Part shown: positions 21,060-28,679 of the stretch, piece after piece | Position numbering within the stretch: the stretch's first letter is position 1 | Layout of the letters: every line of letters starts with the position of its first letter | The notes under the pieces: generated by a model | Database searches by the model: none | Seen by the model: the letters and a program-made list of their open reading frames with translations, nothing else | Told to the model about the DNA's origin: nothing | From: Desulforamulus ferrireducens | GTDB lineage: Bacteria > Bacillota > Desulfotomaculia > Desulfotomaculales > Desulfotomaculaceae | Reading direction: 5' to 3' | Length of the DNA: 64,000 bases | NCBI RefSeq assembly: GCF_002005145.1 | Contig: NZ_CP019698.1 | Coordinates: 310,001 to 374,000 of the forward strand | Position numbers and translations under genes: made by a program

Positions 21060-22028
21060 TTGTCAACCAAGCAAAAAATTATAGATTTACTCCAAACAGA
21101 AGAAGGCTACCTGTCTGGTGAGTACATCTGTCAGCAACTGCAGGTGTCTAGAACAGCAGTTTGGAAGGTTATCGAGGGCCTACGTAAGGATGGTTATGAA
21201 ATTGAAGCCCGCCCCAGGTTAGGTTACCGTTTGTTGAGCTCACCGGATTTGCTGGATCCGGCAGTGTGGATGACTAATTTGCAGGTTAAATGTATTGGCC
21301 GGAACAGCCACTATCAAAGGGTTTTGGGATCTACAAACAGTGTGGCCAAGGAATTGGCCAGACAAGGGACTCCGGAAGGTACTGTTGTTATTACCGAAGA
21401 ACAGACCCAGGGCAGAGGAAGGTTGGGCCGCCAGTGGCAGTGTCCGCCTCAGGCGGGGCTTTGTTTTTCGGTGGTCCTTTATCCCCCGGTTAATCCCATG
21501 GAAGTGGCACAGTTTACCCTGCTGGCGGCAGTGGCAGTGGCCAATGCCCTGGGCAGGGTGCTGGGAGTAGCGGCCAGGGTAAAATGGCCCAACGATGTTT
21601 ACCTGGGCGGTTTAAAGGTTTGTGGTATACTGGCTGAGATGACAGCGGAGGCAGACCGGGTTAAGTACTTGGTGCTGGGCATTGGCATTAACATCAATCA
21701 GACCCAGGCAGACTTTTCTAATATGTCGGCAACCTCCCTGCAGATTCAATTGGGCCGCCCGGTTAGCCGGGTTAAAGTACTAAGGGGAGTGTTGGAGGAA
21801 CTGGATGACCTGTATCTCCAGTGGCAGCAAGGAGGCTTTGCACCCTTGAAGGAGATGTGGAAGCAATCTGCCCTCTGGCTGGGGGAGCCTGTGCTTGTAA
21901 GCGGCCTGCAGAGAACCTGGGAAGGTATTATGGAGGATATTGATGACAGTGGGGCATTAATCCTGAGACTACCCGAAGGTGACAGAAAGACCTTTTATTC
22001 AGGGGAAGTCTCCCTTAGATTAAAATAA
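21060..22028 (+). CDS. birA: Bifunctional biotin operon repressor / biotin-[acetyl-CoA carboxylase] ligase
   Basis: 322 residues from TTG 21060 (AAGGGTGG 8 bp upstream); the longer open frame to 20970 would cover the operator. An N-terminal winged helix (residues about 1-60, EYICQQLQVSRTAVWKVIEGLR) is followed by the ligase domain with QGRGRLGRQW and KWPNDVYL, and a C-terminal SH3-like domain. It biotinylates carrier proteins and, as biotinoyl-AMP complex, binds operators. Both operator sites in this window are 91 bp or less from a start codon. Confidence 0.93.
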   Translation: MSTKQKIIDLLQTEEGYLSGEYICQQLQVSRTAVWKVIEGLRKDGYEIEARPRLGYRLLSSPDLLDPAVWMTNLQVKCIGRNSHYQRVLGSTNSVAKELARQGTPEGTVVITEEQTQGRGRLGRQWQCPPQAGLCFSVVLYPPVNPMEVAQFTLLAAVAVANALGRVLGVAARVKWPNDVYLGGLKVCGILAEMTAEADRVKYLVLGIGININQTQADFSNMSATSLQIQLGRPVSRVKVLRGVLEELDDLYLQWQQGGFAPLKEMWKQSALWLGEPVLVSGLQRTWEGIMEDIDDSGALILRLPEGDRKTFYSGEVSLRLK

Positions 22029-22083
22029 ACGGGCGGCAGCTGCCTTGGCAAGGGTGGTTACCAGACCCATTTTTTTAGTCTAT

Positions 22084-22115
22084 TTGTCAACCAAGAACGG
22101 TATTATGGTTAACAA
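22084..22115 (+). promoter_or_regulatory. BirA operator upstream of bioY
   Basis: TTGTCAACC-N14-GGTTAACAA (22084-22092 and 22107-22115), a near-perfect BirA site ending just before the bioY ribosome site AGGAGGAG. Confidence 0.85.
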
Positions 22116-22129
22116 AAGGAGGAGTAAAG

Positions 22130-22702
22130 ATGAAATTGTCAACCAGAGAGATCACTTTGGCTGGCCTAATGGCAGCCTTGATTATAGTTGTAGTGGTGAT
22201 TACCCGCATTCCCTTTGTCAGTGCGGTGGTACCCTTTAGTCTTCAGCCTTTGCTGGCACTACTGGCGGGGGCTGTCCTAGGGCCTAAGGTGGGCGCCCTG
22301 AGTATGGTGATTTATATTTTACTGGGCCTCATGGGTTTGCCGGTTTTCTCGGCAGAACCCTTCGGCGGCTTGGCCTATGTTTTAAAACCATCCTTTGGTT
22401 TCCTGCTGGGCCAACTGCTGGCAGCCTACTTAACGGGTAAAATTTTACAGGGTAAAGATCCGCGGCAAATTACCTCCTACCTGCTGGCTGCTTTGGCCGG
22501 TATGGTCGCCATCTATGGTCTAGGCCTGCCTTATTTGTATGTCATTTTAAATTTCTATCTGGGAAAAGCTATTTCTGTGGGCGGGGTAATTGGGACTTTC
22601 TTTCTGCCTTTTGCCCTGTGGGATTTGTTTAAAGTGGTCATTGCTGCCAGCCTGGCCCGGGCCATACATCTTCGGCTGCCTAAAACAATGTTAAACCGAT
22701 AA
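22130..22702 (+). CDS. bioY: Biotin transporter BioY (ECF S component)
   Basis: 190 residues with about six hydrophobic helices and BioY features (FSLQPLLALLAGAVLGPKVG, GLPVFSAEPFGGLAYVLKPSFGFLLG). It binds biotin in the membrane and works with a shared energy-coupling module or alone. ATG with AGGAGGAG. Expression is expected to be shut off by BirA via the operator at 22084. No biotin synthesis gene is nearby, so uptake may matter here. Confidence 0.93.
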   Translation: MKLSTREITLAGLMAALIIVVVVITRIPFVSAVVPFSLQPLLALLAGAVLGPKVGALSMVIYILLGLMGLPVFSAEPFGGLAYVLKPSFGFLLGQLLAAYLTGKILQGKDPRQITSYLLAALAGMVAIYGLGLPYLYVILNFYLGKAISVGGVIGTFFLPFALWDLFKVVIAASLARAIHLRLPKTMLNR

Positions 22703-22803
22703 ATTAATATTGCTAAGGATGGTAGCAGAAATCTTGTACTTGTAAGGGGTTTTTTGATAGAATTGCTGGGGATATATTGAAATTTAGGAAGGCAGGGACT
22801 TAG

Positions 22804-23595
22804 TTGATACTGGCAATTGATATCGGGAATACCAACATTGTCTTAGGTGTTTTTGAGGATAAAAAGCTACTGGCCAATTGGCGTTTAGCCACTGACCGTA
22901 ATCGCACCCAGGATGAATACGGGGTTCTCTTAAAAGAACTGTTTAGCCTTTCCAATATTAGCATGCAGTCCATTGAGGGAGTTATGATGTCCTCGGTGGT
23001 ACCACCGGTCAATGGTTTACTGGAAGCCATGGTCAAGAAATACTTCGGTTTAAATCCCTTAATCGTTGGACCTGGCATTAAGACCGGCATTTCCATTAAA
23101 ACAGACAATCCCCGGGAAGTGGGGGCTGATCGCATTGTCAATGCTGTGGCCGCCTATTCCCTCTTTGGAGGGCCATTAATTATTGTGGACTTTGGTACCG
23201 CCACCACCTTTTGTTGTGTCACAGCCAAGGGGGAATATCTGGGCGGAGCCATTGCCCCCGGTATTGGCATTTCCACCGAGGCCTTGTTTGCCCGGGCGGC
23301 CAAGCTGCCCCGGGTGGAACTGATGAAGCCTCCCTCGGTTATTGGCAAAAATACCATTGCCTCCATGCAATCGGGCATTATCTATGGCTTTGCCGGGCAG
23401 GTAGAAATGTTGGTTAAAAAGATTAAACAGGAAATGGGCACTGATGCCAAGGTAATTGCCACCGGTGGACTGGCCGAGATTATAGCACGGGAAACAACGG
23501 TGATAGACAAAATTGTTCCGTCTCTCACCCTGACCGGCTTGCGCATTATTTATGAACGGAACCAGGGACCCGGAGGAGCATATTCATGCAGATAG
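22804..23595 (+). CDS. coaX: Type III pantothenate kinase
   Basis: 263 residues, ASKHA fold: [26 protein letters not shown] and [10 protein letters not shown]. It phosphorylates pantothenate in the first step of CoA synthesis, directly following on from the panBCD product. TTG start with GGAAGGCAGGG upstream. Overlaps dusB by 10 bp. Confidence 0.94.
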
Positions 23596-24542
23596 GACCT
23601 ATTAAGCTAAGTAATCCAGTAATTGCGGCACCTATGGCGGGGGTTACGGATAGAGCCTTTCGTATCATTGCCAGGGAACAGGGCTGTGCTTTGGCTGTGA
23701 CCGAAATGGTGAGTGACCTGGCGTTGCTCTATGCCAATCCAAGAACCTACCGGATGCTGGACTTTCGGGACGAAAAATATCCCCTCAGTGTACAAATATT
23801 TGGTTCAAACCCCGAGACCATGGCCAAGGCGGCGGCCATTGTGGTGGAGCGGGGAGCGCATATTGTGGATATTAACATGGGTTGCCCCACCCCCAAGATT
23901 GTGAAAAACGGCGAGGGCAGCGCCCTGATGAAAAACCCTGAGCTAGCCGGTAAAATTGTTGAAGCGGTGGTGAAGGCTGTGCCAGGCACACCGGTAACGG
24001 TGAAATTCCGTAAAGGCTGGGACGAGGAATCAGTCAATGCGGTGGAATTTGCCCGTACGGTGGTGGCAGCGGGAGCGTCGGCCATTGCTATACACGGACG
24101 TACCCGTAGCCAATTCTACAGTGGCAAAGCCGATTGGCAGATCATTGGCCAGGTCAAAGCAGCCGTTACAGTACCGGTAATTGGTAACGGAGATGTCTGG
24201 ACGCCCCAGGATGCGGCAAGACTTTTGGAGACTACCGGCTGTGATGGAGTCATGGTGGGACGGGGTGCCCTGGGTAACCCCTGGATTTTTCGTCAGATCC
24301 TGCACTACCTGGCCTATGGGGAGGAACTACCACCCCCCACAACCCAAGAAAGGATTGCCACCGCCATCAGGCACCTGGAGTTAATGGTGGAATCCAAGGG
24401 TGAGCAGGTGGCAGTATTTGAGATGCGCAAACACGCCGCCTGGTATACCAAAGGAATTCGGGGAGCGGCCCGGATTCGGGAAGTAATTAACCAATCGCGC
24501 ACCCAGCAGGAGATTGTGGATGTGTTAAAAAGTTTGTTGTAA
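23586..24542 (+). CDS. dusB: tRNA-dihydrouridine synthase (DusB type)
   Basis: 318 residues. FMN-dependent barrel with [45 protein letters not shown] and [11 protein letters not shown], the last marking the catalytic family. It reduces uridines in the D-loop of tRNA. Starts within coaX with GGAGGAG upstream, hence co-translated. Confidence 0.93.
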
Positions 24543-24619
24543 TAGAGACATAAACTGAGAAAAGCATCTTCCCACTGACATTGGTAGTAAAAGAAAGTGC
24601 CTATGTAGCAGGGTTGGCC

Positions 24620-24870
24620 AGCAAGGGGCACAAGTTTATCCAGAGCTCCACTCCATGCTCCGCGTCGATAGCACTATGGTTCACTCCAGGCGAAATGGGG
24701 GTCGCCTCAATTCAACCTCCTGTTTCAGTTCGGCTAGCGCGCACGTCCTGTGCGCGCTCCCCCCATTTCGCCTTATGTTCACCAAGTGCTATTAGCGACG
24801 CTTCACAAGTCGTTCGCTCCGGATAAACTTGTACCCAGTAGGTACCTGTGCCCTGTGTGTGTGCCCCTCG
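24620..24870. repeat. Palindromic foldback repeat, copy A
   Basis: A long imperfect palindrome: the outer arms at about 24661-24700 and 24762-24802 are complementary, and an inner hairpin GCGCGCAC/GTGCGCGC lies at about 24737-24757. The reverse complement of 24652-24836 is closely similar to 47919-48102 by eye. Flanking GGGGCACAAGTTTATCC and GGATAAACTTGTACCC extend the palindrome. No transposase is present. The rest of 24543-25008 holds only a GC-rich hairpin near 24901-24916 and the start region of the next gene. Confidence 0.8.
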
Positions 24871-25008
24871 CTAGCCCTACACAAATAAACCTTGTACCTC
24901 GCCCCCCCCGGCGGGGTTATATTTTTCCCCACAAAACAATAATTAAACCTTGGCCACAAGCATATGATGGTAAAGGAATACCCAATAACAGGGAACGGGG
25001 GAGAAGCT

Positions 25009-26079
25009 ATGAATCCTTTTGCCTTTATTATCCATCCTTTAGACTGCAGCGATGTGGCCAGAAAATTCCCCTTTACAAAATACATGCCTGACACCTTGAT
25101 CGAGCAAACCATAAAACTACTCCCCCCCATTAAGATTTCTCCCATTACAGGGGTACGTTCGTCCACAGCGGAAACAACAGGACACTTTGTCTCCTGTCTT
25201 TTAACAACCAGGCAAATGGCCACTCTCCCTAAACCCTTTGTTATTAATAAAATAATACAGGCAGGACGGCTGGCAGAAAAATTAGGTGCCAAGGTGATTG
25301 GGTTAGGGGCTTTTACCAAGGTGGTTGGTGATGCAGGTATCACAGTGGCAAAAAATTTAAGAGTACCGGTCACAACCGGTAACAGCTACACTGTGGCCAT
25401 GGCGCTGGAAGGAGCCAAGAAAGCGGCACAACTTATGGGACATGACCTCAAAAAAATTCGGGTAACCGTAGTTGGCGCCACTGGAGCCATCGGAAGTGTT
25501 TGCGCTTTGTTTTTAGCCAGGGATGTTAGACACCTTACCCTGGTGGGGCGTAACGAAGCCAAGCTGCATTTGCTGGCAGACCGTATTCTTTATGAAACCG
25601 GTTTAGCGGCTGAGGTTACTGCCAATATAAAAGCTGCCCTAAAAAGATCGGACCTGGTGGTAACGGTAACCAGTTCCCTGGACACCATCATTCAGCCGGA
25701 AGATTTAAAACCAGGGGCAGTAATTTGTGATGTGGCCAGACCGCGGGATGTTTCCCGGCGGGTGGTAGAGGAACGCAAGGATGTTCTGGTGATAGAAGGT
25801 GGCATCGTAGAAGTACCGGGGGATGTTAACTTTAATTTTAATTTTGGCTTCCCGCCCAAAACTGCTTATGCATGTATGGCAGAGACCATGATTTTAGCTC
25901 TGGAAGGGAGGTTGGAGAGTTACACCCTGGGACGAGAGTTAACCATTAAACAAGTGGAAGAAATCTATCGTTTAGGCCAAAAACATGGCTTTAAACTGGC
26001 GGGTTTTCGTAGCTTTGAAAAACCCATTTCGGAAGAAGAAATAAATTTAATCAAGCAGCGGATAAACAGGGTGTCATGA
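25009..26079 (+). CDS. Acyl-[ACP] reductase (AAR)-like oxidoreductase
   Basis: 356 residues from ATG 25009 (GGGGGAGAAG upstream). A Rossmann domain with VVGATGAIGSVCALFLARD at about 154-172 is preceded by LGAFTKVVGDAG and VTTGNSYTVAMALEG and followed by YACMAETMILALEG. These segments line up with cyanobacterial long-chain acyl-ACP reductase (TTGNTHTAY, VVGATGDIGS, FACFAEAML), and Cys289 falls at the place of its catalytic cysteine. The expected reaction is NADPH-dependent reduction of an acyl thioester to aldehyde, but databases often label such proteins as shikimate or amino-acid dehydrogenase-like. No aldehyde-deformylating oxygenase or acyltransferase is adjacent. Confidence 0.7.
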   Translation: MNPFAFIIHPLDCSDVARKFPFTKYMPDTLIEQTIKLLPPIKISPITGVRSSTAETTGHFVSCLLTTRQMATLPKPFVINKIIQAGRLAEKLGAKVIGLGAFTKVVGDAGITVAKNLRVPVTTGNSYTVAMALEGAKKAAQLMGHDLKKIRVTVVGATGAIGSVCALFLARDVRHLTLVGRNEAKLHLLADRILYETGLAAEVTANIKAALKRSDLVVTVTSSLDTIIQPEDLKPGAVICDVARPRDVSRRVVEERKDVLVIEGGIVEVPGDVNFNFNFGFPPKTAYACMAETMILALEGRLESYTLGRELTIKQVEEIYRLGQKHGFKLAGFRSFEKPISEEEINLIKQRINRVS

Positions 26080-26108
26080 GAACACAATAGGTAATACCAA
26101 AACCCGTC

Positions 26109-26138
26109 TTGACAAATAATGAATGGTGTTTTTATAAT
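26109..26138 (+). promoter_or_regulatory. Sigma-A-type promoter of greA-lysS
   Basis: TTGACA (26109-26114), 18-bp spacer, TATAAT (26133-26138). Confidence 0.75.
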
Positions 26139-26275
26139 GTACAGGAACAATCACCCTGAATAGGGAAGCACTGCATTTGGTAGTCACCTTTTGCAGTGCT
26201 TTAAATGTACTTAGACGGTTTGTGACAATTATCAAGAAAAAGAAAATATTAGAGGTAGAGATAAGGAGAAGCAAA

Positions 26276-26752
26276 ATGAAAGAAAAAGAGGTAATGATTA
26301 CAGTTTCTGGTTTAAAACAATTGGAGGAAGAACTGGAAACACTAAAGACGGTGAAAAGACGCCAAGTGGCGGAGAGAATTAAGCAAGCTATCGAGTTTGG
26401 TGATATTAGTGAAAACTCAGAATATGAAGATGCAAAAAACGAACAGGCCTTTATCGAGGGTAGAATTTTGACCCTGGAAAAGATGCTGCGCAATGCCAAA
26501 ATTATAGATGATGAAAACTTGGATATGGATACTGTATCCCTGGGTTCGAAAATCATTTTAAAGGATCTGGAGTTTGGCGATGAACTGGAATATACTCTGG
26601 TTGGTTCCGTGGAGGCAGATCCGGATGCCAATAAAATTTCCAATGAGTCGCCAGTAGGTAAGGCAGTGTTAGGCCAGAAAAAGGGAAGCATTGTTGAAGT
26701 AACTGTACCCGCCGGTGTGCTGAAGTATGAAATCCTGGATATTTTGAAGTAG
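26276..26752 (+). CDS. greA: Transcription elongation factor GreA
   Basis: 158 residues from ATG 26276 with AAGGAGAAG upstream; the open frame to 26177 includes the untranslated leader. N-terminal coiled coil with the acidic tip ([25 protein letters not shown]) and a C-terminal FKBP-like domain ([13 protein letters not shown]). It rescues backtracked RNA polymerase by transcript cleavage. Lies 22 bp upstream of lysS. Confidence 0.95.
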
Positions 26753-26774
26753 ACGTTTGGAGGTTTTTACTTAG

Positions 26775-28304
<1,530 letters not shown>

Positions 28305-28312
28305 AAAACCAG

Positions 28313-28357
28313 GGCTTCCGCCTCGTCTTTAGGGGGTTGGGCGCAAGCCAAGTTTTT
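28313..28357 (+). terminator. lysS terminator, member of a repeated hairpin family
   Basis: GGCTTCCGCC (28313-28322) pairs with GGCGCAAGCC (28340-28349), followed by AAGTTTTT. A near-identical hairpin, arms and flanks included, occurs at 63912-63957. Confidence 0.7.
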
Positions 28358-28371
28358 CCAAAAATTTTTCT

Positions 28372-28472
28372 TTGACAATAGCCGCCGATGGTGGTAAGAT
28401 AATTCTTGCCGCTGCGGCGGTTGTTAATAAAAACAAATAAACCTTGACACACTTTTTGTGATGTGGTAACAT
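28372..28472 (+). promoter_or_regulatory. Tandem rrn promoters P1 and P2
   Basis: P1: TTGACA 28372-28377, 17 bp, TAAGAT 28395-28400. P2: TTGACA 28444-28449, 17 bp, TAACAT 28467-28472. Both precede the rRNA leader. Confidence 0.75.
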
Positions 28473-28506
28473 TTCAAATCGAGGACAGCAAAAACCCTTG
28501 CTAAAT

Positions 28507-28543
28507 TGGTCTTTGAAAACTAAACAGAAGATGATGGATGAAC
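28507..28543 (+). other. 16S processing stem, 5' strand, with boxA-like sequence
   Basis: TGGTCTTTGAAAACTAAACAG followed by an AGATGATG segment is complementary, with few mismatches, to 30345-30382 downstream of 16S. Such stems are RNase III substrates. The TCTTTGAAAA core also resembles the antitermination boxA of Firmicute rrn leaders. Confidence 0.7.
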
Positions 28544-28679
28544 AACAGGTCAAGCAAAAGTCAAGCGGTGACGCTTGAAACTATGATGACCACAAACATC
28601 CTCGTCAAGCGTTATGTAACGCTAGCGAGTAATTCCAAGAAGTAAATAAGAGCTAATCAAGCTCCTGAAATATTTAAAT

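Follow-up and report, generated by a model that had tools for sequence, protein, structure and literature searches.

An acyl-ACP-reductase-like gene of Desulforamulus ferrireducens sits in a widespread Bacillota cassette and may supply aldehyde for alkylamine lipids

Introduction

Acyl-ACP reductase (AAR) is known chiefly as a cyanobacterial alkane enzyme. In the structural account of the Synechococcus elongatus protein (SeAAR), Cys294 is the acyl-enzyme residue, the loop reads GATGDIG, Arg189, Arg193 and Arg314 hold the NADPH phosphate, and Tyr247 lies in the acyl tunnel (PMC7089970). PigE, an enzyme of the prodigiosin pathway, reduces a thioester to an aldehyde and then transaminates it (PMC8341465). 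TamH, from the tambjamine pathway, is likewise described as carrying out thioester reduction followed by transamination, with a fatty amine as the product (PMC9594044).

We have followed up a gene of Desulforamulus ferrireducens, whose genome is a single contig of 3.24 Mb. The analysis centered on a 64-kb stretch of this contig (the window, to whose positions our coordinates refer unless another locus is named). A preliminary description had taken the gene for an acyl-ACP-reductase-like one of a Firmicute and, as no deformylating oxygenase (ADO) gene is adjacent, had considered a product other than alkane possible: fatty aldehyde, alcohol or an ether lipid precursor was suggested. A literature search turned up no publication that deals with Bacillota homologues of AAR, which does not prove that none exists. 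We report here that the gene is no isolated oddity. It belongs to a widespread and newly described Bacillota cassette with the order dusB, HTH regulator, 300-aa partner, AAR, greA and lysS. Many anaerobic Bacillota have the AAR fold among their core genes, in a set arrangement that also includes a regulator and another, putative AAR-fold protein.

Results

The gene occupies 25009-26079 on the forward strand and translates into 356 aa plus a stop, with zero internal stops; open-reading-frame, profile, fold and dN/dS evidence support it. The start is probably ATG 25009, which has a good ribosome-binding-site-like GGGGGAG 5 nt upstream (24997-25003, forward strand), within a region conserved in congeners. 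A longer start at ATG 24964 is unsupported because its frame hits a stop before the gene in four related genomes of the alignment. Against two congeners, dN/dS is 0.047/1.10 and 0.050/1.17, and the gene is under strong purifying selection. A single search of the genome found one true copy, with the runner-up match at E = 0.14. Among the matches listed, the closest named relatives are Desulforamulus aeronauticus, with 92% identity at the protein level, and D. putei, with 87%.

Profile searches place the protein near AAR and near PigE, but inside neither curated family. The sole Pfam match above threshold is PF01488 (Shikimate_DH, an NAD-binding domain; 49.3 bits), and Pfam finds no fused class III aminotransferase. 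The first NCBIfam model is PigE, with 200.7 bits against a cut-off of 850 and over the reductase half only; the acyl-ACP reductase model TIGR04058 is second, at 118.3 bits against the 449.7 needed for membership. In the PDB, phmmer retrieved PigE (4ppm, 4.6e-29) and AAR (6jzq, 2e-26, residues 13-329), and a 46-row profile gave 1.5e-45 for PigE and about 3.9e-38 for AAR. Identity to SeAAR is 29% (88 of 307 aligned residues). By these scores the likeness to AAR exceeds chance by far, and the PigE thioester-reductase domain, the best PDB sequence match, is at least as close.

The predicted structure points to an AAR fold along the whole chain. An AlphaFold model built from 46 rows has a mean pLDDT of 89.9, and in a Foldseek search of the PDB six AAR chains lead, with TM 0.75-0.79 (query) and 0.79-0.82 (target). 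The best of them, 6jzy, aligns with the predicted model at TM 0.79/0.82 over 352 columns. After AAR comes the carmabin TAD reductase; shikimate and quinate dehydrogenases follow far lower, at TM 0.34-0.44. The carmabin TAD domain (9E4U/9E50/9E56) differs in that it has 18-19% identity to the AAR-like protein and belongs to a large assembly-line protein.

The preliminary description had named Cys289 (codon 25873-25875, forward strand) as the catalytic residue, and sequence-profile alignment pairs it with Cys294 of SeAAR, a placement with which the predicted fold agrees. It is kept in 128 of 131 rows; the alignment holds duplicates, and the count is 116 of 119 for distinct homologues. The dinucleotide loop GATGAIG (residues 156-162; 25474-25494, forward strand) corresponds to SeAAR 162-168, and its glycines are nearly invariant among the 119 distinct sequences (Gly156 in 119, Gly159 in 118, Gly162 in 119). 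The codons for Arg181 to Lys185 (25549-25563, forward strand) hold the equivalents of SeAAR Arg189 and Arg193, and Arg309 (25933-25935, forward strand) is the equivalent of Arg314. The NADPH loop and the basic phosphate pocket are preserved in the alignment, with Lys replacing one Arg.

The protein and SeAAR (PDB 6JZQ/6JZU/6JZY/6JZZ) have in common a predicted full-length fold with TM about 0.8, the catalytic Cys, a GxxGxxG loop and three basic NADPH-phosphate residues. They differ in gene context, in the TIGR04058 score and in the absence of ADO. Of the SeAAR residues that contact ADO, Arg73 and Arg79 are Pro74 and Asn80 here, whereas Lys80 is retained. The tunnel residue Tyr247 is replaced by Arg244 in all 119 distinct homologues. 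The tunnel-end Tyr23 and Tyr26 align with Phe22 and Tyr25; the conservation of these two is only partial, with Phe in 30 and Tyr in 14 of 46 rows. The protein shares with PigE the Cys, the CMAET motif and the LGR stretch that follows it; PigE differs in its loop (GYPGSIC) and in its fused aminotransferase, the reductase coming first, whereas the D. ferrireducens protein stands alone. The preliminary assignment to AAR thus stands for a thioester reductase with AAR-like fold and residues, and the protein appears functionally AAR-like; family membership in the strict sense does not follow, with 118 bits against 449.7 and the PigE domain at least as close.

Three homologues lack the Cys. L154 (4001-5089, forward strand) is a stand-alone homologue with Ser in its place (YASMAETM). 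The other two, L052 (2972-4033, reverse strand) and L054 (3044-4102, reverse strand), come from genomes of a single family; they occupy the dusB-greA slot and are strongly diverged, and an intact aminotransferase-AAR fusion lies elsewhere in the genome.

The gene is bordered upstream by dusB (23586-24542), which we take to encode a tRNA-dihydrouridine synthase, and downstream by what are presumably greA (26177-26752, start codon uncertain) and lysS (26775-28304); all three were assigned from open reading frames and synteny and lie on the forward strand. Homologues of the AAR-like protein were found in 39 of 41 relatives (36 of the 36 of good quality). Across the phylum, at E <= 1e-10 and with aminotransferase-AAR fusions included, 194 of 299 genomes have one, or 191 when the count is limited to the 296 of good quality. 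From 596 candidate stretches we took the best 80 of 563 relatives as named loci, some of which end at contig borders. Among these 80, 66 have greA no more than 500 nt downstream, 63 have an HTH gene upstream and 55 have dusB upstream; the partner lies <=400 nt upstream in 49, with a median gap of 14 nt. Carriers among the matches listed include Moorella, Carboxydothermus, Thermoanaerobacter, Sporomusa, Pelosinus and Desulfofundulus, and Moorella thermoacetica DSM 21394 (L182) has the full cassette.

In many relatives, the HTH regulator and partner genes fill the interval between dusB and AAR. The regulator profile has weak HTH matches in the PDB (best E 3e-4), and no convincing homologue of it was found in the D. 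ferrireducens genome (best E 0.07). In the window the interval contains extra sequence at approximately 24545-24880 (no strand assigned), of which ~250 bp or more has no counterpart in four congeners. With its three nested inverted repeats, this sequence looks like a small inserted element. The stretch 24930-25008 is well conserved in five Desulforamulus-type genomes and seemingly non-coding; it is possibly an operator or leader. An Rfam search of 22000-28600 gave zero RNA element matches. Upstream of greA there is a perfect sigma-70 consensus promoter at 26109-26138 (TTGACA, 18 nt, TATAAT), and greA-lysS may therefore have its own transcription.

Of the 299 genomes, 225 have the partner. It accompanies AAR in 190; 4 have AAR only, 35 the partner only and 70 neither, and Fisher tests on such co-occurrence counts ignore phylogeny. 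In D. ferrireducens the partner lies away from the AAR locus (G000:C1:2816117-2817019). Three members had no Pfam match and two no NCBIfam match, and we found no partner homologues on plasmids. The AlphaFold model of a Moorella protein (38 rows, mean pLDDT 88.7) retrieved AAR first in Foldseek (E 5.8e-6, TM 0.46/0.45, rmsd 8.1) and a sugar-binding protein second (E 1.3e-5, TM 0.35/0.38). VIA-align gave AAR a Z of 14.4 (250 residues, 4.1 A), followed by TAD, again next after AAR, at 13.6, and by glutamate dehydrogenase, the first match that is neither AAR nor TAD, at 11.2. Kinship of the two proteins by sequence was not significant (hhalign probability 0.8%, E 0.07). The link to AAR comes from the fold searches, which suggest it without deciding it.

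The partner has neither the Cys nor GxxGxxG, and DRFG stands in the place of the loop. Asn261 is present in 38 of 38 rows and, if the motifs GTNVMEG and ACMAET are taken as equivalent, may occupy the position of the AAR Cys. We read the partner as a distant AAR-fold protein that would have lost AAR chemistry; we can only guess that it serves as a subunit that receives the aldehyde or regulates the enzyme. Small genes of ~130 aa that are similar by eye (L127 6293-6685 and L231 6183-6572, both on the reverse strand) lie beside the D. ferrireducens partner and near the HTH-fusion pair in genome G028; there is no NCBIfam match.

The order dusB-HTH-partner-greA-lysS also occurs without AAR, in 12 of the 25 partner-only loci read and, up to the contig end, in a 13th. 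Genes of 289-308 aa directly follow the partner, in the slot that AAR takes elsewhere, in L103 (2384-3310), L106 (2408-3316) and L108 (2432-3301), all on the forward strand; they have zero Pfam matches. Several lineages have a conserved gene of ~320 aa that separates dusB from the HTH gene, as in L218 (11656-12618, reverse strand), L133 (1496-2461, forward strand) and L155 (1471-2433, forward strand); a Pfam scan of the latter two gave no match.

Bacillota also contain fusions of a class III aminotransferase with AAR, 879-913 aa long. All nine fusions read keep YACM(A/S)ETM. Directly upstream of these nine there is an HTH gene in five, an HTH gene with the partner in one and neither in one (L055); two were unreadable. 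In our tree the fusions cluster together, and the two Cys-less copies form a second group beside Desulfofundulus; the placement of SeAAR and PigE, both on very long branches, is unsure. TamH combines aminotransferase and thioester reductase in the domain order of these fusions. It is likened here by description, not by sequence, and it differs from the AAR-like protein in having the aminotransferase and in serving a secondary-metabolite cluster.

Within the Desulfotomaculales, seven genomes have a fusion. Four of these have no stand-alone match (one of them, G018, is 86% complete), two have a Cys-less stand-alone gene, and one (G028) has an intact one. All 32 fusion-less genomes carry a stand-alone gene with the Cys; in G008, fusion-less and 72% complete, the gene is frame-broken with the Cys present. 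The association of fusion with stand-alone loss has a Fisher value of 2e-6, or 1.5e-5 with G008 taken as lost, phylogeny being ignored. Reading of the stand-alone genes of G008, G028 and G036 and of the fusion genes of G018, G033 and G038 agrees with this pattern. The fusion therefore seems able to replace the stand-alone enzyme, and apparently does so. Among plasmid records with homologues, 13 of 17 are annotated as class III aminotransferase; the plasmid match H1 carries no annotation. We found no fusion-type aminotransferase beside stand-alone genes in the nine stretches of 12-20 kb read, and none among the open reading frames of the window.

The ADO model PF11266 had no match above cut-off in any of the 299 Bacillota genomes and none in D. 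ferrireducens; one genome, G225, had a weak match (E 6.5e-6). Alkanes are therefore an unlikely product, and we rejected them, in line with the other product that the preliminary description had considered possible.

Discussion

Homology, predicted fold, active-site residues, the conserved cassette and the apparent replacement by aminotransferase fusions are the ground of our proposal. We consider it likely that the gene encodes an NADPH-dependent acyl-thioester reductase with the corresponding chemistry. Cys289 would take the acyl group from acyl-ACP or acyl-CoA, and the carrier would then leave. NADPH, bound by the GATGAIG loop and by the pocket of Arg181, Lys185 and Arg309, would donate a hydride, and a fatty aldehyde would be released. 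In these anaerobes the aldehyde would not go on to alkane. The most likely fate is transamination by a class III aminotransferase to a long-chain alkylamine for membrane lipids, with N-glyceroyl alkylamine phosphoglycolipids as the best candidate. What we infer is the chain length, the use of NADPH, the release of an aldehyde, the step to the amine and the identity of the lipid. Taken as a whole, the path from acyl-thioester reductase through aldehyde to long-chain alkylamine lipid has, in our judgment, an even chance of being right. The amine destination, judged separately, is a plausible hypothesis to which we give somewhat less than even weight.

Three lines point to amines: the Bacillota fusions, the pattern of fusion and stand-alone genes, and PigE and TamH together with the plasmid aminotransferase annotations. 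The comparative evidence points to amines rather than to the products first suggested for this gene (aldehyde, alcohol or ether lipid). A 2026 account of Bacillota lipids tabulates N-glyceroyl alkylamines for Moorella thermoacetica DSM 12797; for Thermoanaerobacter wiegelii it lists iso-diabolic acid only, in a column given to diabolic-acid-type compounds only (PMC13274423). Of the cassette carriers, one (Moorella) thus has amines in that table, and T. wiegelii is a carrier as well. When 14 control genomes were searched, the AAR model matched in Synechococcus, Thermus and Deinobacterium only, the latter two below cut-off. Deinococcus radiodurans was the first organism from which N-glyceroyl alkylamine lipids were described, followed by Thermus and Meiothermus, and the groups of Thermus and Deinobacterium are known for them. 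The control pattern fits amine lipids but proves nothing. Against an amine destination, the fusion pattern comes from seven related genomes with phylogeny ignored, and one of the seven keeps both genes; the HTH and partner genes also persist in genomes that lack AAR. The score below the AAR cut-off and the failure to find a fusion-type aminotransferase near the stand-alone genes in the nine stretches read likewise speak against our proposal.

We know of no described genes for N-glyceroyl alkylamine phosphoglycolipids. Tentatively, the HTH-partner-AAR cassette and the fusion that replaces it could be the genes for the long-chain alkylamine portion of these lipids, with the partner, as a Cys-less sister fold, taking or guarding the aldehyde or the amine. 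A role in alkylamine supply would give a genetic handle on a class of membrane lipids known mainly from chemistry, and on fatty aldehyde handling in obligate anaerobes.

Alternatively, the enzyme could reduce acyl thioesters that are not long-chain (short, branched, hydroxy or dicarboxylic) and deliver the aldehyde to a small-molecule pathway. The PigE domain, with its C8-type substrate, is at least as close as AAR, and the exchange of Tyr247 for Arg244 throughout the homologues would suit such a substrate. We nevertheless consider this unlikely: tunnel-end aromatics are present as Phe22 and Tyr25, though partly conserved, we saw no biosynthetic cluster around the gene, and its location beside dusB, greA and lysS suggests a housekeeping role.

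A role in ether lipid synthesis, with the fatty aldehyde going into plasmalogens or similar lipids, or in the recycling of related acyl chains, seems to us just as improbable, if not slightly more so. Desulforamulus species are reported to contain dimethyl acetals, which are plasmalogen markers, and D. putei has 1.1% C16:0 aldehyde (PMC3339622). Older work, as reviewed, has bacteria using long-chain aldehydes, not alcohols, for plasmalogens (PMC9702350). Across the 299 genomes, AAR and PlsA-type proteins occur together in 37; 157 have AAR only, 54 PlsA only and 51 neither (41/153/54/51 with four weak PlsA matches included). An alternative route would predict this anti-correlation, but it may be plain phylogeny. 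One congener (G004) has the AAR-like gene and no PlsA match at 1e-100, with 2 of 7 candidates scored. The ether-lipid reading is weakened because the D. ferrireducens genome already encodes a 1440-aa PlsA-type protein. Its two activase domains and DUF2229 are the architecture of PlsA/Ger-type ester reductases (PMC13274423, PMC12838417), and proteins of the PlsA type are described as making vinyl or alkyl ethers directly from esters (PMC13274423). This reading would also leave the association with aminotransferase fusions unexplained.

We are very doubtful of an oxygen-free route to hydrocarbon or alcohol in which the putative AAR-fold partner replaces ADO, receiving the aldehyde and converting it. 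AAR and GluTR are described as handing aldehydes to a bound partner (PMC8341465, PMC7089970). The partner's position close upstream in 49 of the best 80 of 563 loci, its presence in 190 of 194 AAR genomes and the best PDB match of its model, AAR, would all be in keeping with such a transfer. However, the partner lacks both the Cys and a GxxGxxG loop, it occurs in 35 genomes that have no AAR match, it lies away from AAR in D. ferrireducens, and no metal site was recognised in it by eye. Finally, a relative of shikimate/quinate dehydrogenase or glutamyl-tRNA reductase acting on small polar substrates is highly improbable: although PF01488 is the only Pfam match over cut-off, the specific models score far below theirs (shikimate dehydrogenase at best 19.3 against 295 bits among the best 25 rows, glutamyl-tRNA reductase TIGR01035 46.1 against 209.55), and AAR structures reach TM about 0.8 against 0.34-0.44 for shikimate/quinate dehydrogenases.

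We also considered a role in sporulation and set it aside. AAR goes together with the spore marker SpoIIR (181 genomes with both, 13 with AAR only, 70 with the spore gene only and 35 with neither), but the marker is missing from 13 carriers and the association may be phylogeny. In one lineage, genes of another enigmatic system come after the cassette: L219 (7176-9608, reverse strand) has an AmmeMemoRadiSam A+B fusion and the AmmeMemoRadiSam radical SAM enzyme, named by NCBIfam in this locus only, and similar genes occur in L218, L220, L221 and L222. A contig labelled Armatimonadetes (L137) shows the Bacillota-type order dusB-AAR-greA at 65% identity, with other genes in between, and is perhaps a misassigned bin.
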